A DNA stretch of 64,000 nt, taken from contig OX442317.1 of assembly GCA_949358305.1 (NCBI GenBank), positions 11,906,186 through 11,970,185 of the forward strand, in the 5' to 3' direction. Below are positions 11,791 to 55,293 of the stretch, piece by piece (position 1 is the stretch's first letter; each line of letters starts with the position of its first letter). Below the pieces are notes generated by a model. The model searched no databases, was not told the origin of the DNA, and saw nothing but the letters and a program-made list of their open reading frames with translations. A program made the translations under genes and the position numbers. The stretch is from Strigamia acuminata. Taxonomy: Eukaryota > Arthropoda > Chilopoda > Geophilomorpha > Linotaeniidae.

Positions 11791-12374
11791 TGTTGGTCTA
11801 AAAGACCATTTTATATGTCGATGAGACATAGAATCTTATTATGTTACATTCTAATCATTTATTCCGATATTTATTTTATATCAAATCCCAATTGTCCTTA
11901 TATAATTTGATATAATGATTTAATATTTATTTACATCTCAGATAGCTTATTTCCAATGTTTACCATTGTATTTGATTTTTAAGCATGGAGTATCATGCTT
12001 TATTCAGCCACAATGTTTAATTCCCTTTAATTTTATGTCATGTGTTCACAATTTCCGACACAAGGTGTCGCAATGTACACTTTTCCACTTGTCAACATGG
12101 CGCCCACCTCGATAGCGAGCTGCTCCGCCATTTTTCATTAATTCTGGACTCAATTGTTAAGTATGTTATTATTAAACCTTATTTTATAGTTTTAACAAGT
12201 GTTAAGTCTTGTCTTTTCGGCATATAAGCGCTTTCTGCGCGGCCATCGTTCGTTTCCTTGCAAAACGTCGTCGACACGTTCGTGCGGGCAGCACGACGCC
12301 ATCTTCGTTATAATTTGCTTCCACGTTTCGGTTCACGCCGAATTTGCGCCGCTCGCCTCTGCTACTAACGTACA
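11791..12374 (+). repeat. Element A 5' LTR
   Basis: 584 bp. Starts with a hairpin (TTGGTC...GACCA at 11793-11808). Carries the palindromes GCATGGAGTATCATGC (11983-11998) and GACACAAGGTGTC (12057-12069). 23 bp after the latter comes CAACATGG (12093-12100), a variant of the CAAGATGG motif of the sister LTRs. Confidence 0.95.
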
Positions 12375-12376
12375 AT

Positions 12377-12392
12377 TGGTAGCAGAGGGTGG
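12377..12392 (+). other. Primer binding site of element A
   Basis: TGGTAGCAGAGGGTGG, complementary to the 3' end of initiator tRNA-Met (expected TGGTAGCAGAGGATGG) at 15 of 16 bases, 2 nt after the LTR. Confidence 0.9.
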
Positions 12393-13316
12393 TTGGCTAC
12401 TGTGTTTAATATTTTCCTTTTTATCGCCGAAAATTTTCGCGAATTTCGCGAATTTTCGCGGCGATTTGTGTTTTTTTTCAGTTTACGACGATCCCCGGGC
12501 CTATTTTCGCGTTTCCAGACATCGGCGACGTATCACCGACGTCCAGACACGCCGAGTATCGTTCACCACACGATTCTACGTTAATTTTCGTCCGAAATCT
12601 CGCGGTCTCGCGGATTTCGCGACGAATTTTCAATTTATTTTCAGTTTTCGACGGTTTTTCGTCCCGACGACGATTTTTCGACGATTTCTCAACGGAAACG
12701 AGACGTTTCTCGCTATATGCACCCCGGAGTGTATATAGTATCGACGAATTCACGACGATTTATTTATTTTCGACGATTTTTGCGTATTTTCGTGAAGAGC
12801 CTCATTTTATGAGAAGAATTTGGATTTTCGAATCCAAATTAGCGCTTTTAACGGGTTTTTCGAGAAAACCCGCTCGTGCCTTTATCACGAGCTCGCGTGA
12901 CGTTACGCGGGAGATTCATCACATTTTCGCCTTCCCTGTCGTGAAACTTTGTTATTATAAGATAGATATTAAGGTTTTTGGTTGGGTCATTATTAGAATC
13001 GCAATAGCCCTTCGGACAAGTCTGTCCACCGCTATTGTTGTATTCTAGAGTGAGGCTGAGCCCTGCGCCACCTAGTATTCCCGCGATCCCAGGCGATCTC
13101 AAAGGACACTAGGGGGACACTCACTCTAGGTTATCAGCTGATTGTAGCATCGGCTCCCAATTTGTGGTTTTCCGCCTCGAAAGTGCGTCGTATTGTGATC
13201 GTGATTGTGCCATTGGATCGTGCAGTGCTACGAGTGCCTTCTATTACGTCTATATCACTCTCTACGCCTTTGTATTTTCTCGCGGTGAGCGAAATCCGCG
13301 AATTTCTCACGTCAAG
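12393..13316 (+). other. Element A leader with GC-rich foldback
   Basis: Untranslated leader of 924 bp. A foldback of type TCGCCG...CGGCGA lies at 12423-12465, close to the primer site; similar foldbacks occur in the B and D1 leaders. The last third is related in sequence to the D1 leader. A candidate for packaging or dimerisation signals, by position only. Confidence 0.5.
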
Positions 13317-16300
13317 ATGTCCAAATACGTGGAGCCAACGGTTGGGAAGTGTCCGATGTTAGGAATCAACAACTATGAGTCATGGCGTCGTGCCATGTGC
13401 ATGCTCCTAAAGTCGGAAGGCCTCTGGAGACATGTCACCGAGGAAAAAGAGGCCGAATATTTATTGACATTGACCCCGAAAGAGACTGAGAAATATAAAT
13501 TAAAGAAGGACAAAGCGTTGGGACACATTTATTGCCACGTGAGCGAGGCGAAACGCTCCACACTGGACAACGCCAATACCCCGAAAGAAGCCTGGGACAT
13601 TTTGTCAAAAATTTTTGCTCCCAGCTCTCTGGCTCGCCAAGCAGCCATGAGATGGCAATTTTTGGGCCTACATCTTCAACCGAACGAAGATATGGTCGAT
13701 TTCGTCAGTCGTGTCGATCTCCACGTACGCCAACTCCGGGATATGAAGGAGGAAGTTTCGGACAAGCATCATGCTTACCAGTACTTACATCGTCTGCCTC
13801 CAGAATATGCTCAGGCCACGTTTGCCATCTATAACTGGCCTGAAGCTAACTTTACGCCGACTAAAGTGTCCGAACAATTGGTCTCTGAATATCTTCGCCT
13901 CAAATCAGTTGGTTTACACAATGTTTCATCATCAGCTCACGCGTCTGCCCAGAATCCACAACAATCTCGTCAAGGGTCACGTCCACGTCGTCCATTGTCG
14001 CAAGTCAGATGTTTCAACTGTCAAGAGATGGGTCACTACGCTAACAAGTGCCCATACCCGAAGCGTGACGACCGGAATCAACAACCAACGGCAACATTCC
14101 AACGTTCTCGCAGCAAAAGCAAGAAACGTGGCAAGAACTCGGCTCCTAAACCCGAGGACAATCGCCCCAGAGGAAGCTCTCATCCGGTTCGCAACGCGGT
14201 GTTTTTCGTAAATGCTCCGCAAATCGTTGAACATCCTGTTGCCCACCTGATGCAATCCAACGAATGGATAGTCGATTGTGGTGCCACAGACCATGTTTCT
14301 CACATACGATCGTGGTTTTCCGATTTTGTGAATATTGTCCCTTTTGACATCGAACTAGGCCAAGGAAAATCACAAGTGACTGGTCGAGGAAGTGTTCAAC
14401 TGCAAACACGTGTGGACAATTCTCACTGTAATGTGACACTGACGAACGTTCTCTATGCGCCCAATTTTGAGGCGAATTTAATCTCAGTATCCAAAATTGA
14501 TAAGACCCGTCACCATATTCATATTTTTAATGGAGAAGTCCATATATATGAGACGGACATCACGAGTGCCGTTCTGAAAGCAAAGGAAAAAGGAGGACTT
14601 TACTACGTGGACGGGCTGTGTACAAATCCAACTGTTGCCACTACGACTTCACCAATGATCCAGCAATCACCCGTTCAGACATTTGTAACAACGGAAATTG
14701 ACTTCGTGAATATTCCGAAGCAGAAAAGGCAGAAGTCATCGCAACAGAACATTTCGGATTTTAGGATTCAAATGCCGCCATTACCTGCGACAGAGGCCCC
14801 GACGTCAATTTCGGCCGCCATCGATCCTACACCCACAACACAATCTTTACCTATCCACCTAAACCCTCCAATCCATTCCTATGCTAATGCTCTCCAGCAT
14901 ATCCCCAGTAGTCCTCCACCCGTCACATCTCCTTCTCTCGTCCAATCCGCTGGTAATCCTTCTCAATCACAAAAGAAGGTTATTCCAAATCCTGTCCAGT
15001 TCCCGAAGAAAGCTCTTGCCAACCCTGCCTCTGTGAAAGATGCAACTGGTTTGTGGCATAGTCGCCTTGGGCATTTGCACACCAATGCGTTGAAGTTGTT
15101 AGCCAATAATGACGATGTATATGGACTCGAACCAGCGGAAGTGTCGCAAGAATTGGCGTGCAACGACTGCCGCCTTGCGAAATCCGTCAGGGCTTCTCAC
15201 AAGCCGGATCTACATCCTTCAACATCTCAGCCCCTTGATCTTTTGCATATGGACGTGTGGGGGCCGTATCCGGTACCCTCGTTTGGGGGCGCTCGCTTCG
15301 TTTTCACCGTCATCGATGACGCGACGAGGTACACTTGGATCACCCCTTTGGCACAAAAATCCCAAGTTTTCTCGTGCTTCAAGGAGATCGTCGCCAGGGT
15401 CGAGCGCGTTGCGAATACGCGCATCAAAGCTATTCGATCCGATAGGGGCGGCGAATTCATGTCCAATGAATTTCAACAATACTTGAAGGAAAAGGGGATC
15501 CAGGGACAGCGTACAAATCCGTCAAGCCCCCAGATGAATGGAACAGCCGAGAGAATTAACCGGACAATGGTTGACCACATCAGAGCTGTTATACAAGAGA
15601 CACAACTTCCGGAAGGTTTATGGGCTGAACTCGCGGTCAATTTCGCCTACATTAAAAATAGAAGTCCACATTCCCGTTTGAATAACCAAGTGCCATACAT
15701 ACTTTGGCGTCAGCGTGCTCTTTCTTTGCGCCACCTGAGGAAAATTGGATCCAAGTGCTGGGTGCACTTTACTGCACCGGGACGCAAAAAGCTTGATCCT
15801 CGTGCTTGGGAGGGTTTCCTCGTAGGCTACGCCACTGGGACACGTGGTTACCGCATATGGAATCCTATGGACAATAGCGTAACGGAATCAACTCACGTAC
15901 GCATTGATGAACATCAATCTTATAAAAGGACATTGAGAAGTCAAAATGGTCATCGCAATCAAACTTTCGAGGAACCCAAAGTTAGCCAACAACAACATGT
16001 GTCATTCGACGACAACGTCCACTATTTGGATTGGCCAAAAGCCGACACTGACGGGGATTCCTCGAATACATCCGACGACGATGACGACGATGATGATGAT
16101 GGAAACGGATCAGTCTCGCAATCCATATCCATCCCATTGGTGCATATTTCCCCACTTAATACACCTGAACGTCAGTTGTTAGATGCATGCGCACTGGCAT
16201 TACCGGATTCTGCGAGTTTGGGACGATCAGCATCATATCCAATCCTTTATCAAGAAGGACCGGATACGGATGAGGATGTTGAGCAGATTGTTGATGAGGC

Positions 16301-17543
16301 AATTCAACCGGACGCGGCAGAGTTGCAACAGATTCAGTCTCAACACGTCTCACCGGAAACGTCTCAAACTAGTTCTCCTGGTCTTTCACCGCCTGGCTCG
16401 CCAACCCGTTTCGTCACAACGCGCAGAAGAGATGGCCGAAATATTTTGCAACATATGATGCCAATTTTCGATCAAGGAGCTTTATCACCATTGCCTCCTG
16501 GCCCTACTCATGTTGCAGCACCGTCAGCTGGGAAAACGTCTTTCTATTGGCGTTATGTTGGCGGTGATACAGTCTTCAGACGATGGATTCGGGAGGAACA
16601 TCTCCGAAAAGATCAACGCCCTGGGTGTATAGACACCGATGTCTATTATTTCCCGGAACCTAACCTCCGATTACGTTCGAGACGGGACGTTGAAGAATTC
16701 TGCACGATGAATAATCTCCCCTATGATCCAGAACTTTTCTTTTTCGGCAATATGGAGCACACACTGCCCACGATTCCCGGTCCTCGACATGCCGCTCATC
16801 TTTGCCGTACGGAACCATCATCGTACGCGGAAATTCCGAAGTTTCAAGATGCTCCGAAATGGCGTGAAGCCATTGACGAAGAATTGGAAATATTCAAGGA
16901 AAGGCAGATCTACGTTGAAGTTCCGAGGCCACCCGAGACTACAGTATTAGGCTGTAAATGGATCTTCAAACTGAAGACGGACCTAAGTGGCGAAATAACT
17001 CGTTATCGTGCTCGACTCGTCGCGCAAGGCTTTCGCCAAACCATCGGGGTTGATTACGACGAGGTTTTTAGTCCGGTCGTGAACTTCGTTTTGATCCGAC
17101 TATTCTTCTGTCTTCTAGTCGTCCTCAGAGGATGGAAGGACGCTCACCTCGACGTCAAAAGTGCATACCTGTATGGGGACCTGAAGCACAAGGTATACAT
17201 GCGCATCCCCGCAGGTGCAACTTGTTCGAACCCCGCAAATGTCTGGCTGCTTGTTAAATCCCTCTACGGACTTCACCAGTCAGGGAGGGAATGGTACGAA
17301 AAGTTGGATGGAACGCTTCGAGCTCTCGGTTTTCGGAAGATGCCCGCGTGCAATTGTGTGTACATTTACGGCAATTGTGCCGTTATGTTGGTGTACGTCG
17401 ATGACATCGTACTGTTCTACGCTTCCGACAACGTGTTAACCCGAATCATCCAGCTTATCTCGTCCAAATTTGACATCGTTAATCTTGGTCCCATCACGAG
17501 ACTATTGGGCGTCGAGTTCATTCGAGACGCTGGTCGAACCTTC
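13317..17543 (+). pseudogene. Element A gag-pol, first 1409 codons (interrupted)
   Basis: Start chosen at the ATG of MSKYVEP (13317), matching the position of B's start; the frame further upstream has no ATG. Order: UBN2/gag-like region; CX2CX4HX4C zinc knuckle from C232 (CFNCQEMGHYANKC); aspartic protease DCGATDH at D320; integrase HHCC from H581; integrase catalytic D646, D709, E745; MBD-like module about 1085-1145 (W1090, D1108, R1120); reverse transcriptase with YVDD at 1360-1363. An Asp run (about 16075-16100) lies in the linker. B's LTR breaks the frame after TTC at 17541-17543; the rest is at 24736-25527. Confidence 0.9.
16567..16755 (+). other. MBD-like module in element A polyprotein
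   Basis: Between integrase and RT. Order as in the methyl-CpG-binding domain: W1090-x-R-E-E, L-R-K, 9 residues, D1108-V-Y-Y, 8 residues, R1120-S-R, then a helix and ELFFF. The Asp, Tyr and second Arg match the residues that read methyl-CpG in MBD proteins. Confidence 0.65.
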
Positions 17544-18071
17544 TGTAGACAGAGAATGCGCAAAATATCGGTTATCACCGATTGGAAGCGTGTTTGGAGC
17601 CGCGCTACACGCGCGGACGGCGGCGATACGATCCGTATCGCTTGCAAACAAAGTGCGCGACGTAAGGTCGCTTATACGCACTGTGGGCTGCTCTAAAGCA
17701 ATGAATAGACCCAACACAATGTCAAAAATATATAAAACACTTTATAAAACGAAATATACATTACAAAACAGGTGGAAAATATCCAAGGAGCTGGAATCAA
17801 AGGATCGCGCCATCTTGGATTTTTGGATACCGTGATAAGGGCACCCTGGTGCCGGAAATTAACATTAGGTGTGAACAAATCATTGAATTGGAGAACAAAT
17901 CATAGTCTAAAAGGTACAGGAGTATGGAATTACATACGGGACAGCGCAAAAAGAATAGTAACATCGAAATCAATCAAATAATGACAAGAATACGCTGTAT
18001 ACCTAAACATAATGGGAAATCTAGGAAATAACGAATATATTCATCGATACAAATTGGTCTTTTGACCAACA
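17544..18071 (-). repeat. Element B 3' LTR
   Basis: In element sense it starts TGTTGGTC at 18071 with the terminal hairpin TTGGTC/GACCAA and ends TGTCTACA. The palindrome GGCACCCTGGTGCC (17840-17853) precedes CAAGATGG (minus strand, 17810-17817) by about 22 bp. Confidence 0.95.
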
Positions 18072-18084
18072 AATCCCCTCTTCG
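18072..18084 (-). other. Element B polypurine tract
   Basis: In element sense GAAGAGGGGATT directly before the 3' LTR. Confidence 0.85.
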
Positions 18085-18166
18085 ATGGAAATATTTATCA
18101 GGGGACAAGATGAACGTAGACTGGAATTACAGTTGATAATTGACGAGAAAAGAAAATAATAAAGTC

Positions 18167-18239
18167 GAATCATCGGGCCGGGTACTGTCGTGGTTATCAC
18201 TTAACTAAGCTCGGTATTCCCACAGAAACCCGATGATCC
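18167..18239 (-). other. Element B 3'-UTR hairpin
   Basis: Nine-bp arms ATCATCGGG (18169-18177) and CCCGATGAT (18229-18237). A, D and E have the same structure with GAG/CTC instead of GGG/CCC, a two-sided change that keeps pairing. Confidence 0.7.
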
Positions 18240-18280
18240 TCGAAACTGTGATAAACAAAAATAGGAATGTCACGGTCTGT

Positions 18281-21200
18281 TCATACTCGGAAGATCCTCG
18301 AAATCAATGATCGTAAACGTTCCGAAGATAGCCACTTTGTGAATATGTCGGCGGTATTAACTTCGCCGGCTACCTTTCGAAGATCGAAGACTCCCGCAGT
18401 AAACCACTCCCTGAGCCAGTGAAACTTCACGCGAATATGTTTCGTCTTCGCGTTCTCGATGTCATTGGACGTAAATTGAATCGAGGCCAGGGCGTCGGAA
18501 TACACGATAGGTCGGGATAGACGATTGAGTATCGGGAATTCGGTGTACACGCTGTCGAGCCAGAAAATCTCCTTCACGCACTCAACCAGGGCGATGAATT
18601 CGGCTTCCATGGTTGAGCACGCTACGGTCGACTGTTTGCGACAGGACCAGCCAATGGGGACATTTCCAACGTATACGATGTATCCTCCGAAGCTCAACGA
18701 TGTCTCCGGATCGCTTGCCCACGACGCGTCGGTGAATGCAGATAGTTGACTAGAAGAGCAACCGGATAATTCGATGCAAAGTTCTGCAGTGTTTGCTACG
18801 TACTGCAAAACCTGCAACAAGGCGCGGATGTGGGTTCGATTATAGCACGTGTTGTACTGTGCCAAAGCAATGACGGAATAGAGTATGTCGGGACGAGTTC
18901 TCGATGCCAAAAACAGAAGTGAACCGATTAGAGATCGGTATGGAAAATCATCCAAGTTCTCGGTCGATCCTCTAACGAGTGTCGTTCCCGGGGTCACTGG
19001 TGTCTTGACGAGATTATTGGTCGTCGCCCCGAATTTCTTAACCAGTTTGGCGATATAAGCACGTTGCGTTATGAAAGTGCGTCCGGCGTCGCGGATAAAC
19101 TCGACGCCTAATAACTTCGTGATCGGTCCGAGGTTGACTATATCGAATTTCGAAGAGATGAGACGGATTAGCTGTTTGAAAACGCTGTCGGACGCGTAAA
19201 ACACGACGATGTCGTCCACGTAGACCAGCATAACAGCTGTATTCCCGAACACGTAAACACAATTACATGCTGGCAGTCTTCGAAATCCGAGGGCCCGAAG
19301 CGTCTCGTCGAGTTTCTCGAACCATTGTCTCCCGGATTGGTGGAGGCCGTAAAGTGATTTGAGAAGAAGCCACACATTGTTTGGATCGGTGCATGTGGCA
19401 CCTGCAGGGATTCTCATGTATACGTTATGCTTTAATTCCCCGTACAGGTACGCACCTTTCACGTCGAGGTGGGCGTCCTGCCAACCACGCAATACGACGA
19501 GAAGACAGAAAAACAGACGGATCAATATGAAGTTCACGACTGGGCTAAACACCTCATCAAAATCGACTCCGAGGGTTTGATAAAAACCTTGTGCTACTAA
19601 GCGTGCTCGGTATCGGGTGACGGTTCCGGCTGCATCAGTTTTGAGTTTAAAAATCCACTTGCAGCCAAGAATAGTGGTGTCGGGTGGTCGGGGAACTTCT
19701 TTATAGATTTCTCGCTCTTTAAACATATCGAGCTCCTCTCCAATCGCTTCACGCCATTTCGGAGCGTCGTTAAACTTGGGAATTTCGGCGAATGAAGCCG
19801 GCTCGGTTCGGCATAGATGAGCCGCATGACGAACACCCGGAAGAGTTGGTAACTTATGTTCGAGATTACCGAAGAAAAACAGTTCGGGGTCGTAATCAAT
19901 ATTGTTCAACATACAATACTCCTCGATGTCGTGATAAGATCTTAGACGGATCTTCGGAGTTGGAAAATAATAGACATCGATTAAAATCTTCCCGGGCTTT
20001 TGATCCTTTCTCAGGTGTTCCTCGCGTACCCATTCACGGCACTCGCCATCTCCACCGACGAATCGCCACTTATGAGTAGTGTGGCGCGCAGTCGCTGGTG
20101 AATTGGGATCGGGGTCGAAAATTTGCAGCCCTTGCGCAGCTTGATCATCAACACGTTGCTGACGACGTGTCGTGATAAATCTCGGCGTCGGTACCGGTGT
20201 TTCACGGGGAAGAGAAGGCGCTGCCGATCGCTGAGGTGATGGCGGAGCGGATGAACGAGGAGTCGTCGGAGGCGATGGTCGTGCCGATTGTTCCGCTGAC
20301 GTATCAACGTGTTCGGATGTTTCAGGATAAATCGACAATTCGTCCATCTCTCGGATGTCATGGTCGGTGTCGCGTTCTTCTTCGTACGAAATGTGATGGG
20401 ATTGACGAAGAGACGCAGAACCTGGAGGTAATGTCGCACATAAATCCAGCAATGCCCGTTCCGGAGTTGTCGGTGGTGGTATGTGGATGTGCGGAAAAGC
20501 CAGAGGCGTGTGCATCGAAGCGGATGCCGTCGACACACGTTCGGAATCGTTCGCAGAATGTTCTGACGCCTCGGAATCAGATCCCTTCGGCCACTGATGG
20601 TAATGTAGGGTATCATCAAATGTAACGGTTTGTTGTCCGGGACCAGTAAATGACTGTTGTGGCTGCTGCGTCGAAATTTTGATGGATTTCCGATACGACT
20701 GCCGCTCATCGATCTTAACGTGAATAGATTCGTAAACCTTGTTGTCGGTTGGGTTCCAAATCCTGTATCCACGGGTCCCTGTGGCGTAGCCGACTAAATA
20801 TCCCTCCCAGGCCCGCGGATCCAGCTTCTTGCGGCCTGGTGCGGTGTAGTGCACCCAGCACTTGGAACCGACTTTTCGTAAATGTCGTAACGAAAGGGCT
20901 CTCTGTCGCCAAAGGATGTATGGGACCTGATTATTAAGTCGAGAATGAGGGCTCCGATTCTTGATGTAGGCAAACGTGACCGAGAGCTCGGCCCAGAGCG
21001 CCTCCGGCAACTTGGTTTCGGATAAGACTGCACGAAAGTTGTCGGCCATTGTCCTATTTATGCGCTCGGCCGTGCCATTCATCTGTGGCGATGACGGATT
21101 CGTTCGCTGACCCTGGATGCCCTTGTCTTGTAGATACCGGAGAAACTCGTTTGACATAAACTCTCCGCCTCGATCAGTCCGAATTGCTTTTATTTGGGTG

Positions 21201-23302
21201 TCCTGGATTCTCTCAACTCGAGCGACGAAGTCCTTAAAGGTTGCGAAAACCTGCGATTTCTGGGCTAATGGTATTATCCAGCAATAGCGTGTCGCGTCGT
21301 CGATGACGGTAAGGACGAAACGCGCTCCTCCAAACGATGGCACAGGGGCGGGCCCCCAAATATCCATGTGGAGAAGGTCCAAAGGCTTCGTAGTCGAGGG
21401 ATTCGGATCAGGCTTATGAGAAGCTTTTGTCGATTTGGCTATTCTGCAGTCGTTGCAGGCCAATTCCCTGCTCACTTCCCCTGGTGACATTCCGTAAACT
21501 TGGTCGTTTGCGGCCAACAGCTTCATTCCATTCGTATGAAGGTGGCCAAGACGGCTATGCCATAAGCCGGTGGCATCCTTGACGGAGGCTGGATTGGCGA
21601 TGACCTTCTTTTTCGGTTGAGACGGGTTGCCGAGGGGAGGAAAGGAATTTGCATTTGGAATTGCAATAGGAATTAGGGCTGGAACGGTTGTCGGGATCGA
21701 CTGCAAAGCACTCGCATAGGAAGGAGGAACGGTCAGGTCATTGTGGATTTGCGTGGGGATAGGAGGAGGTATCGGATTGGTCGGAATAGGAGCTTGTTGG
21801 TTCAGAATTTGCTTCGAAGTCTCAACAATCGGCATTTCTATTCGAAAATCCGTGATCTCTCGCTGTTGGCCCTTTCCCCTTTTCGGTTTGGGGATTTTAA
21901 TGAAATCCTCCTCGGTCGTTACGTACATTTGCACAGGTGGCGATGGAGTCGTCGGTTGTACGGTGGGAGAAACCGTCGTCGCAAATGTCGGTGTAGTACA
22001 CAAACCGTCCACATAATATAACCCGCCCCTCTCCTTTGCACGGATGAGTGGGCTGCGAATGTCCGATTGATAAACATGTATCTCACTGTTGAAAATGTGG
22101 ATGTGATGTCGTGCCTTGTCTATCTTCGAAACCGAAATCAAGTTTGCCTCGAAATTCGGCGCGTAAAGGACATTGGTCAAATTCACGGTGCATCGGGTCT
22201 TATCGATCGCCAGAAGAAGTCGAACTGTTCCTTTGCCCGTGACTTGGGACTTTCCCTGTCCCAACTCGATGTCGAATGGAATGACATCGGTAAACTCAGT
22301 GAAACCTGCACGCACGTGAGAAACGTGATCTGTAGCGCCGCAATCCAGAATCCACTCATTGGATTGCATAAAATGAGCGACTGGACGTTGGATAAGCTGC
22401 GGCGCATTGACGAAAAATGTCCCCTCTCGGTGTGGATGCGAGCTTTCTCGGGGACGCGCGTTGTTGGCCTTCGCGGCAGCGTTCTTGTTGCGCCTGCGAC
22501 TCTTGCTGCGTGACGATCGTTGCTGCAGTGAAGCCGCTGGTTGACCCTGTTGTTGACGGGGCGGACGTGGACATCGGTTCGCGTAATGTCCGAGCTGATC
22601 ACAATTGAAACATTTCACCGTCGAAATATCGCGAGGTCCGGATTTATTTCGGGGTCGGAATTGTCCTTTCATAGACGCGTGAGCTGATGATTGGCTCGTT
22701 CCGAGTAACCCGATGGATTTGAGCCGCATGTGCTCGGAAATCAGCTGCTCGGCGACATCCTTCGGCGTGAATTGGGGATCCGGCCAGTGGTATATGGCAA
22801 ATGTTGCCTGAGCATATTCAGGCGGCAGACACTTCAGATACTGGTACGCGTGGTGAACCGGGCTAATAATCTCGTTGACATCGCTTAGTTGCCGCACGTA
22901 ATTATCGACGCGGGCAATGAAGTCCGGCATATCTTCGCCAGGTTGGAGTTGGAGGCTGAGAAACTCCCAGCGCATCGCCGCTTGACGGGCTCTAGAGCTG
23001 GGCGCGTAGGTTTTCGCCAACTTGTCCCACGCCTCCTTTGGCGTGTTACAGGTTTCCAAAACAGTACGCTTGGCGGGGCTCACATGGATGTAGATGTGCC
23101 CTAACGCTTTATCTTTCTTGATCATGAATCTGTCCAATTCCTTGGGCGTTAACGTGGCAATATGTTCCGCTTCCTTGTCCTCCGTCACGTGCCTCCAGAG
23201 CCCTTCCGATTTCAAAAGAAATTGCATCGACAATCGCCATTGTTCATAATTGTCGACACCGAGAACCGGAATTAAGCTGTTCGAGTTGGCCGCTTTCTGC
23301 AT
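18281..23302 (-). CDS. Element B gag-pol polyprotein, 1673 aa, intact
   Basis: Single frame from ATG at 23302 (MQKAANSNSLIPVLG) to 18281. Gag with UBN2-like region; zinc knuckle from C231 (CFNCDQLGHYANRC); protease with D320-C-G-A-T, Cys where most families have Ser or Thr; integrase HHCC (H...H, CNDC) and catalytic D647, D710, E746; MBD-like module with W1091, REEHLRK, D1109-V-Y-Y and R1121-S; reverse transcriptase with LVAQGF, SLYGLHQSGRQW and YVDD at 1361-1364; RNase H with TDASWAS, TMEAE and DIFTKW near the end. Gag and Pol share one frame with no stop or shift, so Gag:Pol ratio must be set by splicing or processing, as in Drosophila copia. No inactivating change seen. Confidence 0.95.
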   Translation of the reverse strand: MQKAANSNSLIPVLGVDNYEQWRLSMQFLLKSEGLWRHVTEDKEAEHIATLTPKELDRFMIKKDKALGHIYIHVSPAKRTVLETCNTPKEAWDKLAKTYAPSSRARQAAMRWEFLSLQLQPGEDMPDFIARVDNYVRQLSDVNEIISPVHHAYQYLKCLPPEYAQATFAIYHWPDPQFTPKDVAEQLISEHMRLKSIGLLGTSQSSAHASMKGQFRPRNKSGPRDISTVKCFNCDQLGHYANRCPRPPRQQQGQPAASLQQRSSRSKSRRRNKNAAAKANNARPRESSHPHREGTFFVNAPQLIQRPVAHFMQSNEWILDCGATDHVSHVRAGFTEFTDVIPFDIELGQGKSQVTGKGTVRLLLAIDKTRCTVNLTNVLYAPNFEANLISVSKIDKARHHIHIFNSEIHVYQSDIRSPLIRAKERGGLYYVDGLCTTPTFATTVSPTVQPTTPSPPVQMYVTTEEDFIKIPKPKRGKGQQREITDFRIEMPIVETSKQILNQQAPIPTNPIPPPIPTQIHNDLTVPPSYASALQSIPTTVPALIPIAIPNANSFPPLGNPSQPKKKVIANPASVKDATGLWHSRLGHLHTNGMKLLAANDQVYGMSPGEVSRELACNDCRIAKSTKASHKPDPNPSTTKPLDLLHMDIWGPAPVPSFGGARFVLTVIDDATRYCWIIPLAQKSQVFATFKDFVARVERIQDTQIKAIRTDRGGEFMSNEFLRYLQDKGIQGQRTNPSSPQMNGTAERINRTMADNFRAVLSETKLPEALWAELSVTFAYIKNRSPHSRLNNQVPYILWRQRALSLRHLRKVGSKCWVHYTAPGRKKLDPRAWEGYLVGYATGTRGYRIWNPTDNKVYESIHVKIDERQSYRKSIKISTQQPQQSFTGPGQQTVTFDDTLHYHQWPKGSDSEASEHSANDSERVSTASASMHTPLAFPHIHIPPPTTPERALLDLCATLPPGSASLRQSHHISYEEERDTDHDIREMDELSIYPETSEHVDTSAEQSARPSPPTTPRSSAPPSPQRSAAPSLPRETPVPTPRFITTRRQQRVDDQAAQGLQIFDPDPNSPATARHTTHKWRFVGGDGECREWVREEHLRKDQKPGKILIDVYYFPTPKIRLRSYHDIEEYCMLNNIDYDPELFFFGNLEHKLPTLPGVRHAAHLCRTEPASFAEIPKFNDAPKWREAIGEELDMFKEREIYKEVPRPPDTTILGCKWIFKLKTDAAGTVTRYRARLVAQGFYQTLGVDFDEVFSPVVNFILIRLFFCLLVVLRGWQDAHLDVKGAYLYGELKHNVYMRIPAGATCTDPNNVWLLLKSLYGLHQSGRQWFEKLDETLRALGFRRLPACNCVYVFGNTAVMLVYVDDIVVFYASDSVFKQLIRLISSKFDIVNLGPITKLLGVEFIRDAGRTFITQRAYIAKLVKKFGATTNNLVKTPVTPGTTLVRGSTENLDDFPYRSLIGSLLFLASRTRPDILYSVIALAQYNTCYNRTHIRALLQVLQYVANTAELCIELSGCSSSQLSAFTDASWASDPETSLSFGGYIVYVGNVPIGWSCRKQSTVACSTMEAEFIALVECVKEIFWLDSVYTEFPILNRLSRPIVYSDALASIQFTSNDIENAKTKHIRVKFHWLREWFTAGVFDLRKVAGEVNTADIFTKWLSSERLRSLISRIFRV
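19875..20060 (-). other. MBD-like module in element B polyprotein
   Basis: Minus-strand codons for W1091, REEHLRK, DVYYFP (D1109) and RLRS (R1121), then an ELFFFG block. Same spacing as the MBD consensus. Confidence 0.65.
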
Positions 23303-24185
23303 CGTAGATCGATTCGCGAAGAGCGTAACACAACGCGAAAATCACACAGGCTCAGAGAGAGGCACTGAAATGTCGCACGAGATTGGAGCACTTTTCACAA
23401 TTCGGAGCACTTCACTGCACGATTCCCTCGGTGTTCGATGCGAAAAACCACAAATTGGGCAATTCCTTCTGAAGGAATCAAATAACCTCCGGTTGCCAGT
23501 CTGAGAGGGTCCGATCGGCTTCCTGGAGCCGCGGGAAACCTCACTTGTACCGCGACAAGCACAACCGGAGAATACGTGTAAGCGTGATCGGACTCGATCG
23601 AAGAGCAAACACGATTCTAAAGGAACCCCCAAAAGCCTTAAATTTATCTTAAGATTAACAATGGTATTTCGACAGAAGGAGAAATAGGTGAATCGATCGC
23701 GGTTGCGATCCTCGTGCAAATGAAGGCACGGCGCAGTTTTCTCGAAAAACTGGAAAAAACGCAAATTCGGATTGAAAAATCCGAATTTCTTCTCGATAAA
23801 TCGAGGCTCTTCGTCCGGAAAATAATAGATCGACGATACTGTGCATACGCCGGGGTATACACAGCGGAATTCGATCCGTTTCTCGTTGAAAAGTGTCACT
23901 TCGACACTGGCGAAAGGAAAATCGACGAAAAATCTGAAAATATAAAATATTTCTCTCGAAATTCGCGAATCCCGCGTAATTTCGGAGAAAATTAGACAAA
24001 TGTTGATGTGATTGACGACCCTGGTCGTCTGTGAACGTCGGTAGGACGTCGGCGTCGTAGGCGAGACGAAAATCGAGACAAAATGGCCGCCGAAAATCTG
24101 AAAATAAAAATATCGGCGCAAATTCGCGAATTTTGCGAAAAAGCGTCGAAAGATCAGGTAAATAGAACGGTTGTTCACTGAACAA
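23303..24185 (-). other. Element B leader
   Basis: Untranslated 5' leader between primer site and gag ATG. Foldback around ATTCGCGAAT at 24113-24145 near the primer site. No real gene; open frames here overlap the LTR. Confidence 0.6.
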
Positions 24186-24201
24186 CCATCCTCTGCTACC
24201 A
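24186..24201 (-). other. Primer binding site of element B
   Basis: Minus strand TGGTAGCAGAGGATGG, an exact complement of the 3' end of initiator tRNA-Met, 1 nt from the LTR. Confidence 0.93.
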
Positions 24202-24202
24202 A

Positions 24203-24730
24203 TGTAGACAGAGAATGCGCAAAATATCGGTTATCACCGATTGGAAGCGTGTTTGGAGCCGCGCTACACGCGCGGACGGCGGCGATACGATCCGTATCGC
24301 TTGCAAACAAAGTGCGCGACGTAAGGTCGCTTATACGCACTGTGGGCTGCTCTAAAGCAATGAATAGACCCAACACAATGTCAAAAATATATAAAACACT
24401 TTATAAAACGAAATATACATTACAAAACAGGTGGAAAATATCCAAGGAGCTGGAATCAAAGGATCGCGCCATCTTGGATTTTTGGATACCGTGATAAGGG
24501 CACCCTGGTGCCGGAAATTAACATTAGGTGTGAACAAATCATTGAATTGGAGAACAAATCATAGTCTAAAAGGTACAGGAGTATGGAATTACATACGGGA
24601 CAGCGCAAAAAGAATAGTAACATCGAAATCAATCAAATAATGACAAGAATACGCTGTATACCTAAACATAATGGGAAATCTAGGAAATAACGAATATATT
24701 CATCGATACAAATTGGTCTTTTGACCAACA
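24203..24730 (-). repeat. Element B 5' LTR
   Basis: 528 bp, appears identical to 17544-18071. Confidence 0.95.
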
Positions 24731-24735
24731 CCTTC

Positions 24736-25527
24736 ATCACGCAACGCGCCTACATTGCAAAGCTCGTTAAGAAGTTCGAGGTCTCTATCAATCGCCTCGT
24801 GAAGGTCCCCGTCACACCCGGGACAACGCTCGTGAAGGGGTCAATCGAAAATCTACCGGACTTTCCTTACCGATCTCTCATCGGTTCACTTTTATTTCTC
24901 GCGTCGAGAACACGCCCCGACATCTTATTTTCGGTTATTTCGCTAAGCCAATTTAACACCTGTTACGACAAGACGCATATCCGAGCCCTCCTCCAAGTTC
25001 TTCAATATGTGGCCAACACTATCGACTATCGTATCGAGCTTTCGGGCTGTAATTCTAGCCAACTGTGGGCTTTTACGGATGCGTCATGGGCGAGCGAAGC
25101 AGCCACGTCTCTAAGTTTCGGCGGCTATATCAACTTTATCGGAAATGTGCCAATTGGCTGGTCGTGCCGAAAACAGTCAACGGTTGCATGTTCCACCATG
25201 GAAGCAGAATTTATCGCCCTGGTGGAATGTGTGAAGGAATCCTTCTGGCTCGACAACATTTACACCGAATTTCCGATTCTCGACAGGCAATCCCGACCGA
25301 TCATCTATTCCGACGCTCTCGCGGCTATCCAGTTTACTTCGAATGACGTGGAAAATTCAAAGACCAAGCATATCCGCGTCAAATATCATTGGCTACGAGA
25401 GTGGTATACGGCGGGATGTTTCGATCTTCACAAGGTATCCGGTGAACAGAACGTTGCGGACATATTTACCAAATGGCTGAGTTCCGAACGCTTGAAGTCG
25501 TTAATCTCCAAGATATTTCGACTATGA
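24736..25527 (+). pseudogene. Element A gag-pol, last 263 codons (interrupted)
   Basis: Continues A's frame after the second CCTTC (ITQRAYIAKL...). End of RT and full RNase H: TDASWAS, KQSTVACSTMEAEF, YSDALA, TKHIRVKYHWLREW, DIFTKW. Stop TGA at 25525-25527. No internal stop or shift, so B is the only break in A that I see. Confidence 0.92.
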
Positions 25528-25578
25528 TTTCACCGTGACTTTATCGTGACACTCTTTATTTATTATTCCTGATTATGA

Positions 25579-25652
25579 GGATCATCGAGTTCCAGTGGGA
25601 ATATTCGGGCTTCCATAGCGTTCTTCAATAACAGTACCCGGCTCGATGATTC
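25579..25652 (+). other. Element A 3'-UTR hairpin
   Basis: Arms ATCATCGAG (25581-25589) and CTCGATGAT (25642-25650), 52 nt between. CAGTACCCGGC before the second arm is kept in all relatives. Confidence 0.7.
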
Positions 25653-25734
25653 GACTTTATTGTTTTATTTTTCGATCTCATATACACTGTAATTCCAGTA
25701 TCCGTTTATTATTTCCCCTGATCCTATTTCCATC

Positions 25735-25746
25735 GAAAGGGGGAAT
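25735..25746 (+). other. Element A polypurine tract
   Basis: GAAAGGGGGAAT immediately before the 3' LTR. Confidence 0.88.
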
Positions 25747-26330
25747 TGTTGGTCTAAAAGACCATTTTATATGTCGATGAGACATAGAATCTTATTATGT
25801 TACATTCTAATCATTTATTCCGATATTTATTTTATATCAAATCCCAATTGTCCTTATATAATTTGATATAATGATTTAATATTTATTTACATCTCAAATA
25901 GCTTATTTCCAATGTTTACCATTGTATTTGATTTTTAAGCATGGAGTATCATGCTTTATTCAGCCACAATGTTTAATTCCCTTTAATTTTATGTCATGTG
26001 TTCACAATTTCCGACACAAGGTGTCGCAATGTACACTTTTCCACTTGTCAACATGGCGCCCACCTCGATAGCGAGCTGCTCCGCCATTTTTCATTAATTC
26101 TGGACTCAATTGTTAAGTATGTTATTATTAAACCTTATTTTATAGTTTTAACAAGTGTTAAGTCTTGTCTTTTCGGCATATAAGCGCTTTCTGCGCGGCC
26201 ATCGTTCGTTTCCTTGCAAAACGTCGTCGACACGTTCGTGCGGGCAGCACGACGCCATCTTCGTTATAATTTGCTTCCACGTTTCGGTTCACGCCGAATT
26301 TGCGCCGCTCGCCTCTGCTACTAACGTACA
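25747..26330 (+). repeat. Element A 3' LTR
   Basis: 584 bp, one mismatch seen against 11791-12374. Followed by the AGTGG duplication at 26331-26335. Confidence 0.95.
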
Positions 26331-44366: not shown

Positions 44367-44661
44367 CAACAAAGCGAATTACACTGGACAAAGAGGCGGT
44401 CGATCGAACTATCGAGGTGGCAGAAACACGAGGGGAAGTTTCAGAGGAAATGGCACCGGATCAACGGGACGGGGGCCGTGTTTTCGGTGTAATCAACATG
44501 GTCATTGGGCTAAAGACTGTACAGCTCAATTGCAATTGGCACCAAACGCGAATATGAAGTCAAATACAGTCGAGGAACTTGATTCCAACATGTTAGACGT
44601 CGGATTCCTTACGGAATTGAGCGACCAGGAAATGTTGCAGTGCAGCCAAGCCAGCGGATAA
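44367..44661 (+). pseudogene. Element C gag, 3' part with zinc knuckle
   Basis: Continues 33901-34604 once F and one AAAG are removed. RG-rich stretch (RGGRSNYRGGRNTRGSF) and CFRCNQHGHWAKDC zinc knuckle, then LDVGFLTELSDQEM. Ends in a TAA at 44659-44661 because of a frame change; pol opens in another frame at about 44642. Confidence 0.85.
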
Positions 44662-47600
44662 GAAAACCCTCATTAAAATACAAGGAGTCGGGGATGTCTG
44701 CATTATGTGTCTAGTTGGGAACGACACAGTCCCAATTACACTCAAGAAGGTCTACTACGCGCCAGATCTACGAAGGAATCTAATGTCGGGGCCGTGTATT
44801 GACGAAGCAAGATGCAGAGTGGCCATAGGCGCGGGCCTGGTGAAAATATACGATCCGCAATGGAAGAGACAACTGATGGAGGCAGTTAAAAAGGACAGAC
44901 TATATTATATCAAACTCAGTGATCAAAAACCGGATCTCGAGAAGCTAAAACAAAAGGAAAGCAACAAGGCCAATACGAGCGAGCAGAAGAAACAAGAGTC
45001 ATCCGACGTAGGCAGAAAGAAATCAAATCCAGAAGAGGCAAGATTGTGGCACGAACGGTTAGGGCACATTCATTTCCCAAGCGTCCAGGGGATGAGCAAA
45101 AGTGACGCCGTGGTGGGCTTACCATTCTTGGATGTTCCAATTACACAGTGTGATGTCTGCGACTTGGCGAAGAAGAAAGCCATTCCTCACAAGTCCTTGC
45201 CAGGGATTAGATCAAAGGGACCACTAGAACTCCTACACATGGACGTATGTGGAGCGTTTTCGACGGAAACTCTCTCGGGAAATAAATATTTCCTCACAAT
45301 AACAGATGACTACTCTCGCTACTCAACCGTCTACTTAATGAAAAGGAAAGATGAAGTATTTGATCTATTTCGGAAACACACAAAGAGAATCGAACGGCTA
45401 CTGGGAAAATCAATCCTAGCCATCCGCACGGACAATGGCATGGAGTTTTGCTCCAACAAATTTGGGGAATACTTGGAAGAACAGGGCATTATCCACGAGC
45501 GAACCAATGCCTACACACCAGTCCAAAACGGCGTTTCCGAAAGACTCAACCAAACTTTAGCAAATGGAATGCGAGCTCTCATTTACGACGCACAGATGGA
45601 ACACAGATTCTGGGGGGAAGCCATCTTGACATTCAACTATTTGAGGAACAGAATAGCAAAATTGAACTCGGATAAAACGCCCATGGAACTGTATTATGGT
45701 CGCAAGCCGTCACTCCGACATTTGAGAAAATTCGGAAGCCTCTGCTTTGTGCAGAAGAGAGTGCGAGACGGCAAGATCGATAACAAAGCATTGCATGGAA
45801 TCATGCTTGGCTATTCACGAGTTACGAAGGGCTACAGAATCTGGTTGCCGGATTTCTCCAAAGTTATTGAAACAAGTGATGTGAAGTTCGTCGAAAGCAA
45901 GCGCGGAGTTGAAGGCGTGCTGGGCCTACCTGAGAAAAACACAACATTTATTGACAATTTGAACGATAATTTGGATGACAACAATGACCGTCAGTACTAC
46001 TCGGATGAGGATATAAGGCCACCCCTACCTCCGCCGCAACCACTTAAAAAGGAAGAAGGAAAGGAGTTACCTCAGCTCAATTTGAAGTTGAGATTGCCGG
46101 AAGAGAAGCTTCGACCAAAACCCAACATACCGGGAGCCGAAGCAGGAGTGAAATTGCCTGGAATTTTACCACAACCTGGAATCGACGTTGTGAACCCAGT
46201 TCCGACAATTCCTCCACTTGTCTGGAAAAGGACCGAGAAAACGAGACCCACTGGACACAAGGATTATGAGTACACAATCGAAGGATACGACAAACCGAAA
46301 TTGCGCTCAATACCAGAGGTGAAGCGCTATTGTACTGAACATAATTTACATGTTCCAGAACACCTTTTCGATGACAAGAGGAAGAAGAAACCCGCTGAAT
46401 CGAACGTGACGGCGGACGACTTTGATTTAGATGATTTAGACGATTTGACTCTCGATTTTGAAGCCAACCATCTCGAGGTCTATGTACCGACACGCTTCGA
46501 GCAGATAGCCAATTTACCAGAGAAAGAAGAATGGGATCAAGCGATGTGCGATGAGATCGACGTGATGCACGAACGTGAAGTTTGGGAATTGGTCCCACCA
46601 CCATCCGACGTTAAATTAGTGGGATCCAAGTGGGTTTTCACTGTTAAACAGAACGAAAAAGGAGAAGTTGCACGTTATAAGGCAAGACTTGTGGCGCAGG
46701 GTTTTTCCCAAGTCTATGGCAAGTCTTACGAAGAAACCTTTTCGCCTGTGGTGGACTTTTCCATCATTCGTTTTCTATTTACGCTACTCGTCTGTATGTT
46801 AAAGTGGTCATACATCCAGGCTTACGTCAAGAGCGCTTATCTATACGCAAAGCTACAGAAAACGGTTTACATGCGTCAACCCAAAGGATTCGTTTGCCAG
46901 GGCAAAGAAAATTACGTTTGCAAATTACTTCGGGCAATATACGGCTTACATCAATCCGGAAGAGAATGGGGCTTGGAACTCGAAGAAACTTTGCTGAAAC
47001 TTGGTTTACAACACGTAGATTGGTGCAACTGCGTTTACAAGTTCAAAAATGTCGCATATTTAATCGTGTACGTCGATGACATCGTCGTTTTCGGCAAACA
47101 TCATGAAGACGCGATGAATGTTCTCAACTTAATTAAGACGCATTTCGATCTAGTAATATTGGGACGGACAAAGAAACTATTAGGAGTTGAATTCCACTCA
47201 CACAAACAACTAATGGTTTTGCATCAAAGAAGTTACATCAGCAAGGTATTGTTGAGATTCGATAATCACCTAAAGTCAGTGAAGATTAGGTCGCAACCGA
47301 TGATCAAATCGACCATTCTCACAAAACAGCAATGCCCCACTACCATTGAAGATTTCAAAGTCATGGAGAAGATACCGTACAGAAGCTTGCTTGGTTCTTT
47401 AGCATTTATTGGATCAAGAACAAGGCCAGATATGACGTACGCAATCAACATTCTGAGCCAATTCCAATCCAACCCCGGATGGGACCATTGGATCGTACTC
47501 TTGGAATTGCTTAGCTATTTAAGGACAACTAGAAACCTCGGACTGATGTTGTTCCCTAACGACCAAATTGAAGTCATTGGCTACAGCGACTCGGATTACG

Positions 47601-48058
47601 CCAACAATCGAGATGATCGGATTTCTGTTGGCGGAACCCTTATAACGTTGGGCAATGCTTCCATCTATTGGAGAACATTCAAACAACGCAATGTGACACT
47701 GTCCACAATGGAAGCCGAGTATGTGGCGCTCACGGAGACCGTCAAGGATTTTATCTGGATTGTCAGAGTATTATACGAGATCGTCCCTGAGTTGGCAAAC
47801 AACTTTTATCACCGAGTGCTGTGCGATAATATCTCTTCCGTGGACTTTACTAAATCGAATATTGAGAATCGAAAGACGAAACATATCGATGTAAGGTACC
47901 ACTTTATACGGGAACTCGTCAAGAGGGAGAACCTGCAGGTGGTACATGTGGGAACCAAATCAAACTTTGCCGACATATTTACGAAGTCGGTTGATAAAAC
48001 CGATCTAGTGCATTTTTGTAATCGATTTTTGATCGATCTCACTACTCTGAGTGCTTGA
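44642..48058 (+). pseudogene. Element C pol (protease motif lost)
   Basis: Open from 44642 (first ATG 44705) to 48058. It begins with the end of the protease region (KKVYYAPDLRRNLMS), but no D-S/T-G-A motif exists in any frame here, so a deletion removed the active site and shifted the frame relative to gag. Integrase HHCC (WHERLGHIHF, CDVCDLAK), DDE (LLHMDVCG, RTDNGMEF, NGVSERLNQT); a weak MBD-like module at 46222-46375; RT (VAQGFSQ, YGLHQSGREW, YVDDIVVFG); RNase H (YSDSDYAN, STMEAEYVAL, TKHIDVRYHF, DIFTKS). All but the protease look functional. Confidence 0.88.
46222..46375 (+). other. Divergent MBD-like module in element C
   Basis: W-K-R at 46222, TRPTGHKDYEY, then KLRSIPEVKRYC. Same order as in A/B/D/E (W..R, D-x-x-Y, R-S, helix), two residues longer between D and R-S, and without the FFF end. 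Confidence 0.4.
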
Positions 48059-52179: not shown

Positions 52180-54347
52180 TCATAGTCGGAAAATCCTTGA
52201 TATCAACGACCGTAGACGCTCCGAACCTAACCACTTCGTGAAGATATCTGCGACGTTAACGTCGCCGGGCACTTTTCGGAGCTCAAAACGTCCCGCCGTA
52301 TACCATTCCCTGAGCCAGTGATACTTGACGCGGATGTGTTTGGTTTTGGAATTTTCCACGTCGTTTGACGTGAACTGTATGCTGGCCAAGGCATCCGAAT
52401 ATATGACGGGTCGGTGTAATCGGTTGAGAATCGGGAATTCGATGAAGACGTGATCCAGCCAGTAAACTTCCTTCACACACTCAACAAGGGCTATAAATTC
52501 AGCTTCCATTGTTGAGCATGCGACCGTTGACTGTTTTCGACAGGACCATCCTATCGGGACGCTACCGATGTACGTCACGAAACCTCCGAAACTCAAAGAC
52601 GTTGCCAAATCGCTAGCCCACGACGCGTCCACATACGCCCATAGCTGACTAGATGTGCAGCCGGAAAGTTCGATGCAATAGTCTACAGTATTTGTCACGT
52701 ACTGCAGAACTTGTAGAAAGGCTCGAATATGTGACTTGTCGTAGCACGTGTTGAACTGTGATAACGAGATGACGGAGAAAAGAATATCGGGGCGCGTTCT
52801 CGAAGCTAGGAATAGTAGTGACCCGATGAGTGATCGATAAGGGAAGTCACTCAGATTCTCGGTTGATCCCTTTACTAGAGTGGTTCCAGGAGTTACGGGC
52901 ACTTTTACGAGGTTGTTCGTCGATGATCCAAACTTTTTGACAAGTTTCGCGATGTACGCACGTTGAGTGATGAAGGTGCGTCCAGCATCACGAATAAACT
53001 CGACGCCCAATAGCTTCGTGATCGGTCCGAGGTTGACAAGTTGAAATTTCGAGCTGATAAGTTTGATAATTCGGTCTAAAACACTGTCTGCCACGTAGAA
53101 AAGCACGATATCGTCCACGTAGACTAACATCACTGCACAATTGCCATAGATGTAGACGCAGTTGCAAGCAGGCATTTTTCGGAAACCGAGGGCTCGAAGG
53201 GCTTCATCCAACTTTTCATACCACTGCCTCCCGGATTGGTGGAGGCCGTAAAGAGACTTGATAAGTAACCAAACGTTGTCGGGATTCATGCAAGTTGCAC
53301 CTGCCGGGATGCGCATGTAGACCTTGTGCTCCAGGTCCCCGTACAGGTATGCACACTTGATATCCAGATGAGCGTCTTTCCAGCCACGTAACACAACCAG
53401 AAGGCAAAAGAAAAGTCGAATTAACACAAAATTCACCACCGGACTAAAGACTTCATCGTAGTCGACTCCGAGAGTTTGTCGAAAACCTTGGGCTACGAGT
53501 CTCGCACGATATCGAGTTATCGTTCCGGCTGCATCTGATTTGAGGTTAAAAATCCATTTGCAGCCCAATATCGTCGTATTCGGTGGCTTCGGAACTTCTA
53601 TGTAGACCTCTCTTTCCTTAAATGTCCCCAATTCCTCATCAATGGCTTCACGCCATTTCGGGGCATCTTCGAATTTCGGAATTTCGGCGTACGATGCGGG
53701 TTCAGTTCGGCAGAGATGAGCGGCATGACGGGGAGCCGGAATCGTGGGCAATTTGTGCTCCATATTGCCGAAAAAGAATAATTCGGAGTCATATTCGATG
53801 TCGTTGAGGTGACAATACTCCTTAATATCATTACGCGATCGTAAACGTACGCCGGGTTTAGGGAAATAATAAACGTCGATTGCAATTTGGCCGGGCTGCT
53901 GGTCCTTGCGCAGATGCTCCTCTCGAATCCAGTCTCGACAGGCCGTGTTCCCTCCAACACGCCTCCAAATGAAAGTGGTATGGCGCGCTGTCGGAGCTGC
54001 TTCCGCGGTCCCCTCGAGTGGAGCAGGTGACATAGGGGCAGTGTCGAAGACCGGCATTATGTGAGTCTGTGTCGTAGCACCGGCTCTTCTACGCATGGTG
54101 ACATAACGATCTGGAGAAAGGGGTGGTGACGGTTCACGAGATCTGTCCGGTGTGACATCCCTGAATGGATGTTCCAGTCGTTCCGCCTCATCTGGAGGGG
54201 TCGCGTATTCCTCAATTTGGTCTACGTCATCATCCGTATCTTGTCCTGTCTCGAATTCCTCCTGTCGTTCCTGATATAATTGGAATCCCTCCTGGGGCTC
54301 TTGATATAAGACGGGGAATGATACTGAGCGACGCATGCTCGCAGAAC
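52180..54347 (-). pseudogene. Element D1 pol, C-terminal part
   Basis: From the integrase-RT linker (MRRSVSFPVLYQE) through the MBD-like module (about 53780-53955; WIREEHLRK, DVYYFP, RLRSR), RT (YVDDIVLFY) and RNase H to the stop at 52180. Gag, protease and integrase are absent. The frame stays open past the scar to 54546 in leader sequence, by chance. Could still supply RT/RNase H only if translated. Confidence 0.85.
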
Positions 54348-54375
54348 TGAACATTAGTAGCAGAGGCGAGCGGCG
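54348..54375 (-). other. 28-bp LTR scar in D1
   Basis: Identical to the first 28 bp of the element E LTR in plus-strand reading (TGAACATTAGTAGCAGAGGC...). It sits at the same pol site where E is found in D2 (58256), then joins codon 15 of a D gag start. Confidence 0.8.
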
Positions 54376-54419
54376 AGAATTGGCACAATACCCGACGTGG
54401 ATTCGCTGGTCTTCTGCAT
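54376..54419 (-). pseudogene. Element D1 gag start, 15 codons
   Basis: ATG at 54419 (MQKTSESTSGIVPIL), the counterpart of B's MQKAANSNSLIPVL. Cut by the deletion; it then reads a stop in the scar. Confidence 0.75.
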
Positions 54420-55293
54420 TGTTGCACGTAAAGCCAGACACACGGCGAACAAGACACAAAAGCTCAGAGAATGGTACCGTGGCGAATCGATGCACTTCAC
54501 AAAAGATGTCGTCGGAACGGAGCACTTCACTTAAACGATGGCACAAAACGAAGCACTGTCAAAGCGGATATCCAACAAAGGGGAACTGATGCTACAATCA
54601 GTTGATAACCTAAAACGAGTGTCCCCCTAGCGTCCTTTGTGACCACCTGGGGCTGCGGGAATGCTAGGTGGCGCAGGGCTCAGCCTCGTTTTAGAATACA
54701 AACACCAGTGTCGATACTAAAGGTCCCTTTCCAAAATACCCACTTAAGAACTAACAATTTAAATCCGACAGGAAGGAGAAATAGATGAATCCCCCGTGGA
54801 AGGTCACACGGGCTCGCGACAAAGCACGAGACGGGTTTTCTCGAAAAACCCGCTAGAAAAGCGCAATCCGGCTTCGAAAAACCGAATTCTTCTCGATCAA
54901 ATCGAGGCTCTTCACTTAAAGCTGCGTAATTATTAGAAATCGGCGATACTACATGGACTCCGGGGTGCATGTAGCGAGAATCGTCTCGTTTCTCGATGCA
55001 AAACGTCTCGTCGACGTTGTCGAAAGAGAAAACTATCGAAATCCTGAAAAATACAAAAATTCGTCTCGAAATTTGCGAGACCGCACAATTTCGGACGAAA
55101 TTAGCTGGAGAATTGCGTAGGGTGCAGTACAAACTGCCTGGGAACGTCGTTGACTCGTTGTCGACGTTTAAAACGCGAAAATCCAGCTCGAAAATGACGA
55201 AGTGTCTGTAAATATAAATTCGCCGCAAAATTCGGGAAATTCGCGGAATTTTCGGCGATAATTAGTGGTAAAGGAAGCGTGCAGAGGATGCAA
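54420..55293 (-). other. Element D1 leader
   Basis: Untranslated, related to A's leader. Foldback with TCGCCG/CGGCGA arms at 55219-55259, close to the primer site. Confidence 0.55.

Follow-up and report, generated by a model that had tools for sequence, protein, structure and literature searches.

A predicted methyl-CpG-binding domain between integrase and reverse transcriptase of copia retrotransposons in Strigamia acuminata

We analysed a stretch of 64,000 nucleotides of Strigamia acuminata contig OX442317.1 (positions 11,906,186 to 11,970,185, hereafter the window) and found that copia retrotransposons in it carry, within the pol polyprotein, a module that is, to judge from its sequence, almost certainly a genuine member of the methyl-CpG-binding domain (MBD) family. 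This identification follows from Pfam matches and a profile search of solved structures and, more weakly, from a predicted model. A six-frame motif scan detected the pattern W-x-R...R...D-[VY]-Y...RS in elements A (+ strand, W at 16584), B, D1, D2 and E (all on the - strand), the five in which the original prediction had placed it between integrase and reverse transcriptase (RT). The same scan also picked up element C (+ strand, 46223), a sixth module absent from the earlier list. The positions given earlier hold to within a few dozen bases, but the interval 16567-20060 joins the module of A to that of B, which lies on the opposite strand and is inserted in A. In A, B, C and E a Pfam scan located the module after the SH3-like domain of integrase and before RVT_2, and in A, B and E it lies 239 residues past the SH3-like motif and 65 residues ahead of the RT motif. 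The frames of D1 and D2 begin downstream of integrase, so that only the RT side of the module is visible there.

To assign the module we scanned 90-residue segments against Pfam (scores in Table 1). For each of the six, MBD (PF01429), the family against which the original prediction had proposed to search, was the sole family matched; its curated cut-off of 21 bits was reached by the D1, D2 and E segments but not by those of A, B and C. In whole-frame scans the MBD of D1 and D2 scored 19.8 and 19.9 bits and that of E 16.4 bits, all under the cut-off, and no MBD was found in the frames of A, B and C at E <= 1. A single-sequence search of the PDB returned MBD2 as top match (E 0.048), and a profile of five segments (A2) matched MBD2 at 0.027. 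With profile A3, in which six loci from elsewhere in the genome were added to give 11 copia MBDs, the matches became MBD2 at 2.4e-12, MBD4 at 8.1e-12, MeCP2 at 1.4e-11, MBD1 at 3.5e-10 and MBD3 at 1.6e-9; individually, all 11 members matched MBD, the best at 1.1e-13. Structure prediction, which had also been suggested, gave a divided answer: for one model the first 31 VIA rows were all MBD/TAM domains, with Foldseek E-values above 0.2, but a second model was of low confidence. The combination named beforehand as speaking against an MBD, namely no profile match together with an unrelated predicted fold, was thus not what we obtained.

We then looked at the residues that read the methyl group. 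In MeCP2, R111, D121, Y123 and R133 recognise methyl-CpG (PMC8811898). With the correspondence set by alignment with MBD2, A, B, D1, D2 and E each have both Arg, the Asp and the Tyr, in agreement with the Asp, Tyr and Arg claimed at the outset. In the A3 alignment W, R, R, R and S are invariant, both recognition Arg occur in 11 of 11 members and the Asp is nearly invariant. The Tyr occurs in A, B, D1, D2, E, L001, L003, L006 and L051, but L005, L008, L014 and L047-L050 have Val, Ile or Trp at its position. The recognition set is therefore complete in the window's main clade and only partial in other subfamilies. The divergent module of C retains W, R, R and RS, the Asp and Tyr not being clearly retained. 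Mammalian MBD3 lacks that Tyr and does not recognise 5-methylcytosine (5mC) (PMC4914596). Methyl preference is likelier, as far as these residues can indicate, in the Tyr-bearing window clade than in the Val/Ile subfamilies.

The module is widespread in the genome. A PF01429 search gave 1,092 first-look candidates; the best 150 were scored and all 150 exceeded the Pfam cut-off (best 3.8e-11). Among the 25 of these loci that were read (L001-L020, L047-L051), 24 continue by eye from the MBD into a copia RT and L006 continues into the stretch ahead of RT; stops or frame breaks occur in some (L002, L003, L007, L015). In all five representatives L047-L051, SH3_retrovirus, MBD and RVT_2 lie in a single frame, with the MBD at E 7e-11 to 6e-10 (39 to 42 bits). 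At one MBD copia locus, G000:C1:66463876-66464145, the open frame extends over 3,432 residues, roughly double the usual length. Of 2,633 RVT_2 candidates 150 were scored, and these best matches fall in other copia lineages: in the 15 of them that were read and scanned (L032-L046, L046 being a 228-residue fragment only), RVT_2 was found in 15 of 15 and MBD, at E <= 1, in none. An unrooted RT tree of 86 columns and 29 distinct rows, from which loci whose RT stretch is broken by stops or gaps (L001, L002, L003 and L006 among them) were excluded, parted 16 MBD from 13 MBD-less rows by one branch with a support of 99/99. The branch of C is long and leaves the MBD side at its base. The tree is consistent with, and does not prove, a single origin of the MBD copias. 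A protein search for homologues elsewhere, in which no eukaryote collection was covered, gave eight candidates, none at E <= 0.01.

For selection we compared four copies from the window, A, B, D1 and E. Their MBDs are 65 to 75% identical and gap-free, integrase is 83 to 91% and RT 82 to 93% identical, and the flanking linker shows 39 to 68% identity, with gaps (three pairs). For the six pairs the proportion of synonymous differences (pS) in the MBD was 0.82 to 1.04, that is saturated, and the nonsynonymous distance (dN) 0.19 to 0.29; saturation of the synonymous distance in most comparisons precluded a dN/dS ratio for the MBD. Because the alignment is gap-free and dN stays at these values while synonymous sites are saturated, the MBD appears to be under purifying selection, less strict than that on the enzymes. 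The lineage has also been recently active. The start of the B long terminal repeat (LTR) has 41 exact matches in the genome; 20 were fetched and gave eight LTR pairs including that of B, all eight identical and all eight with matching 5-bp target-site duplications (TSDs), in a sampling by exact match that is biased to young copies.

The elements of the window are listed in Table 1. Domain order, the LTRs and TSDs of A and B and those of seven further B-family copies place them in Ty1/copia (Pseudoviridae); the Pfam order in A, B and E is Retrotran_gag_2, rve, SH3_retrovirus, RVT_2. No Chromo family was among the Pfam matches of A, B, C, D1, D2 and E at E <= 1. The TSD of A is AGTGG on both flanks and that of B CCTTC (+ strand). 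Both elements are very young, the two LTRs differing at 1 of 584 positions in A and at 0 of 528 in B. The open frame of A reaches into the LTR of B and terminates inside it. After the LTR comes TTGGTAGCAGAGGATGG, which we take to match the 3' end of the initiator tRNA-Met and thus to be a candidate primer site. D1 and D2, about 3,908 bases apart, are partial copies of nearly the same sequence, with integrase in neither open frame; the position of the D2 core was derived from this 3,908-base offset. Other frames of the window encode a caspase domain (29779-30915, +) and an unusual pairing of a Nup98 GLEBS motif with a RING finger (8046-9194, +).

Table 1. Copia elements of the window and their MBD modules. 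Scores are those of the 90-residue segments against PF01429; an MBD core is the 55 residues from W to ELFFFG.
Feature	Position	Strand	Score	Remarks
Copia element A, LTR to LTR	11791..26330	+		Split by B; LTR/TSD comparison
LTRs of A	11791-12374 (5'), 25747-26330 (3')	+		584 nt each
A open frame	13113..17696	+		gag, protease-region, integrase, SH3-like, MBD, RT; Pfam scan
MBD core of A	16584..16748	+	16.9 bits, E 0.0049	Under Pfam cut-off
Copia element B	17544..24730	-		Nested within the RT of A; LTR/TSD comparison
LTRs of B	17544-18071, 24203-24730	-		528 nt each
B open frame	18281..23341	-		1,686 residues, gag to RNase H region, MBD inside
MBD core of B	19868..20032	-	16.0 bits, E 0.0096	Under Pfam cut-off
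Element C pol open frame	44621..48058	+		Protease-region to RNase H; more distant copia
MBD-like module of C	46223..46375	+	14.6 bits, E 0.026	Divergent; under Pfam cut-off
D1 partial pol open frame	52180..54558	-		MBD, RT, RNase H region; integrase outside frame
MBD core of D1	53767..53931	-	23.9 bits, E 3.3e-5	Over Pfam cut-off
D2 partial pol open frame	56346..58502	-		Near-duplicate of D1
MBD core of D2	57675..57839	-	23.9 bits, E 3.3e-5	Over Pfam cut-off
Element E pol open frame	59038..63999	-		Truncated by window edge
MBD core of E	60625..60789	-	21.0 bits, E 2.5e-4	Equal to Pfam cut-off

We also searched the host genome for a methylation machinery. PF00145 gave 11 matches at five loci. 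Four of these are DNMT1-like (L027, L028, L029, L030): L028 is verified by Pfam, where DNMT1-RFD, CXXC and methylase exceed the cut-off and BAH falls slightly short of it, and the three others show the methylase and a likeness by eye. The fifth, L031, resembles DNMT2 in its motifs. No DNMT3 was recognised among the five loci, although exon-wise searching may miss one. Host MBD2/3 is encoded by one gene (L055) with an intron inside its MBD; it has Phe (DVFYY) at the position of the methyl-reader Tyr, versus Tyr in the window copia MBDs. COX1 is open throughout under the invertebrate mitochondrial code. The host is an invertebrate animal equipped with CpG methylation genes.

We consider it reasonably probable that the MBD is a tether that would hold the integration complex on CpG-containing chromatin rich in transposable elements (TEs). 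The element would translate the MBD as part of pol, in the long linker that separates the SH3-like domain of integrase from RT, and after processing the domain would remain on either the C-terminus of integrase or the N-terminus of RT. There it may bind CpG-containing, preferably methylated, DNA, and once bound it could keep the pre-integration complex at genomic regions that are TE-rich and resemble heterochromatin. That the copia MBD binds DNA, prefers methylated sites and targets integration is what we infer; the position in pol, the genomic spread and the methylation genes of the host fit with a guidance of integration. It is also possible, and put forward tentatively, that methylation itself guides integration into methylated TE-rich chromatin, the elements' own copies included (B in A), and that the subfamilies without the Tyr have shifted to plain CpG or chromatin binding.

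Chromosomal location was compared with the best-scoring 150 matches of each search placed on 11 large contigs, those on the remaining contigs being left out (16 MBD, 14 window-clade, 3 RVT_2 and 8 gypsy matches of 150 each). The median relative distance to the nearer contig end was 0.20 for 134 MBD loci and 0.24 for 136 window-clade loci, two sets that share no loci, compared with 0.57 for the 147 best RVT_2 matches and 0.30 for 142 gypsy matches. MBD copias differed from the RVT_2 set in end distance (Kolmogorov-Smirnov (KS) test, 9.5e-16 for the first set and 8.4e-11 for the window clade), in tests that treat copies of one family as separate, copies not being independent families. They were frequently clustered at a single end of a contig. 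In 1-Mb bins the Spearman correlation of the two MBD sets was 0.42 and 0.49 with gypsy and -0.14 and -0.17 with the RVT_2 set. On contig C13, unlike the other large contigs, gypsy elements and window-clade MBD copias are dense along the whole length. The flanks of 11 insertions had a GC content of 0.466 versus 0.371 in 16 interior controls (P 0.002) and 0.388 in 12 end controls (P 0.005), the controls not being strictly random; L059 and L060 were excluded because their upstream side is element-internal. This location agrees with targeting to TE-rich chromatin and does not prove it.

Several observations weigh against the tether. The most numerous top-scoring subfamilies (L005, L008, L014, L049, L050) have Val or Ile in place of the methyl-reader Tyr. 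The copias are not CpG-depleted (observed/expected ratio 1.05 to 1.38 in their frames and 1.24 in the window), and there is therefore no sign of heavy germline methylation in these young copies. CpG at the 11 insertion flanks was not significantly richer than in the controls (P about 0.1). Gypsy elements share the chromosome ends: in end distance, MBD copias against gypsy give a KS value of 0.020, and 0.41, with no difference left, once contig C13 is removed, and gypsy against MBD-less copias gives 6.0e-7. A Pfam scan found a chromodomain in 0 of 3 sampled gypsy integrase pieces, and since such chromodomain-less elements lie at the same ends, accumulation there needs no MBD. The end bias had first appeared to support targeting directly, and the gypsy control weakened it.

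The same gypsy and Val/Ile data suit another explanation, that a true MBD fold serves general DNA or cDNA binding or intasome assembly without reading methylation, the end bias resulting from selection against insertions near genes. Indeed, many MBDs bind unmethylated DNA or do not bind 5mC (PMC8885841). AT-hook-like GRP motifs occur at this place, the integrase-RT linker, in other copia lineages of the genome (5 of 12 MBD-less linkers parsed: L032, L033, L036, L039, L042; by eye three more: L034, L035, L046), which makes a generic DNA-binding slot plausible; DNA-binding tethers may in general be accommodated there. We nevertheless regard this explanation as rather unlikely, since Arg, Asp, Tyr and Arg are complete in A, B, D1, D2 and E and MBD-less copias show no end bias.

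A role against silencing, in which the MBD would compete with host MBD2/3, or recruit or block co-repressors on methylated element DNA and so let the element escape, seems improbable. The host does possess MBD2/3 and DNMT1, and the copia W-REE--RK resembles the host MBD2/3 exon over 25 columns only; but the module lies inside pol beside integrase and RT, would presumably be produced together with the virus-like particle and not as a protein free in the nucleus, and no separate MBD frame was seen among the copies read. Finally, a resemblance through convergence or a few motif residues, to which the sub-threshold segments and MBD-less whole-frame scans of A, B and C, the Foldseek values and the poor second model might point, is hardly credible and close to refuted, given the profile match to MBD2, the scores in the five full pol pieces and the 150 of 150 scored loci over the cut-off.

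The tether reading has precedents of other kinds. LTR retrotransposons with a chromatin-reader module are already known; an MBD as that reader was not found described in the open-licence PMC literature (subscription papers, preprints and Repbase lying outside this scope), in keeping with the original statement that no MBD-bearing copia was known. A screen of plant LTR elements reports no domain gain in copia elements (PMC9289625). The nearest precedent found is CoDi-I of the diatom Phaeodactylum, also a copia lineage in which a chromatin-reader module is attached to integrase (PMC5348765), followed by the chromoviruses, Ty3 and the DNMT-carrying retrotransposons. In CoDi-I, however, a chromodomain after integrase reads histone methyl-lysine, whereas relatives of the module described here read methylated CpG. 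Chromoviruses (Ty3/gypsy, MAGGY) and Ty3 likewise choose integration sites through a reader module at the integrase C-terminus (PMC3656877, PMC8632968), but they belong to a different superfamily and use a different domain, and the function of the copia MBD is putative. The DNMT-carrying retrotransposons of dinoflagellates and charophytes have also captured a component of the 5mC system; there the writer is carried, and copias are without it, whereas here copias carry a reader (PMC5890265). MBD2/3, MBD1, MBD4 and MeCP2 are of the same domain family, MBD2 being the nearest solved relative, but they are host chromatin proteins outside retrotransposon polyproteins. In Ty5 and Ty1 the targeting contact sits in the C-terminal part of integrase and consists of short peptide contacts, unlike the captured folded domain of a DNA-methylation-reader family found here. 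These two are nevertheless copia elements whose integrases tether, to heterochromatin through Sir4 (Ty5) or, at Pol III promoters, to Pol III (Ty1) (PMC3656877, PMC8632968).

The MBD lineage is large and recently active and has MBD-less sister lineages in the same genome, which therefore offers a natural experiment on whether methylation, usually a defence against transposons, may be usable as an address; the copia MBD could also be used for fusions or swaps in laboratory integrase assays. From chromodomain elements it was already clear that readers of histone marks can be taken up by mobile DNA; here the borrowed domain belongs, as its sequence indicates, to the family that reads DNA methylation.

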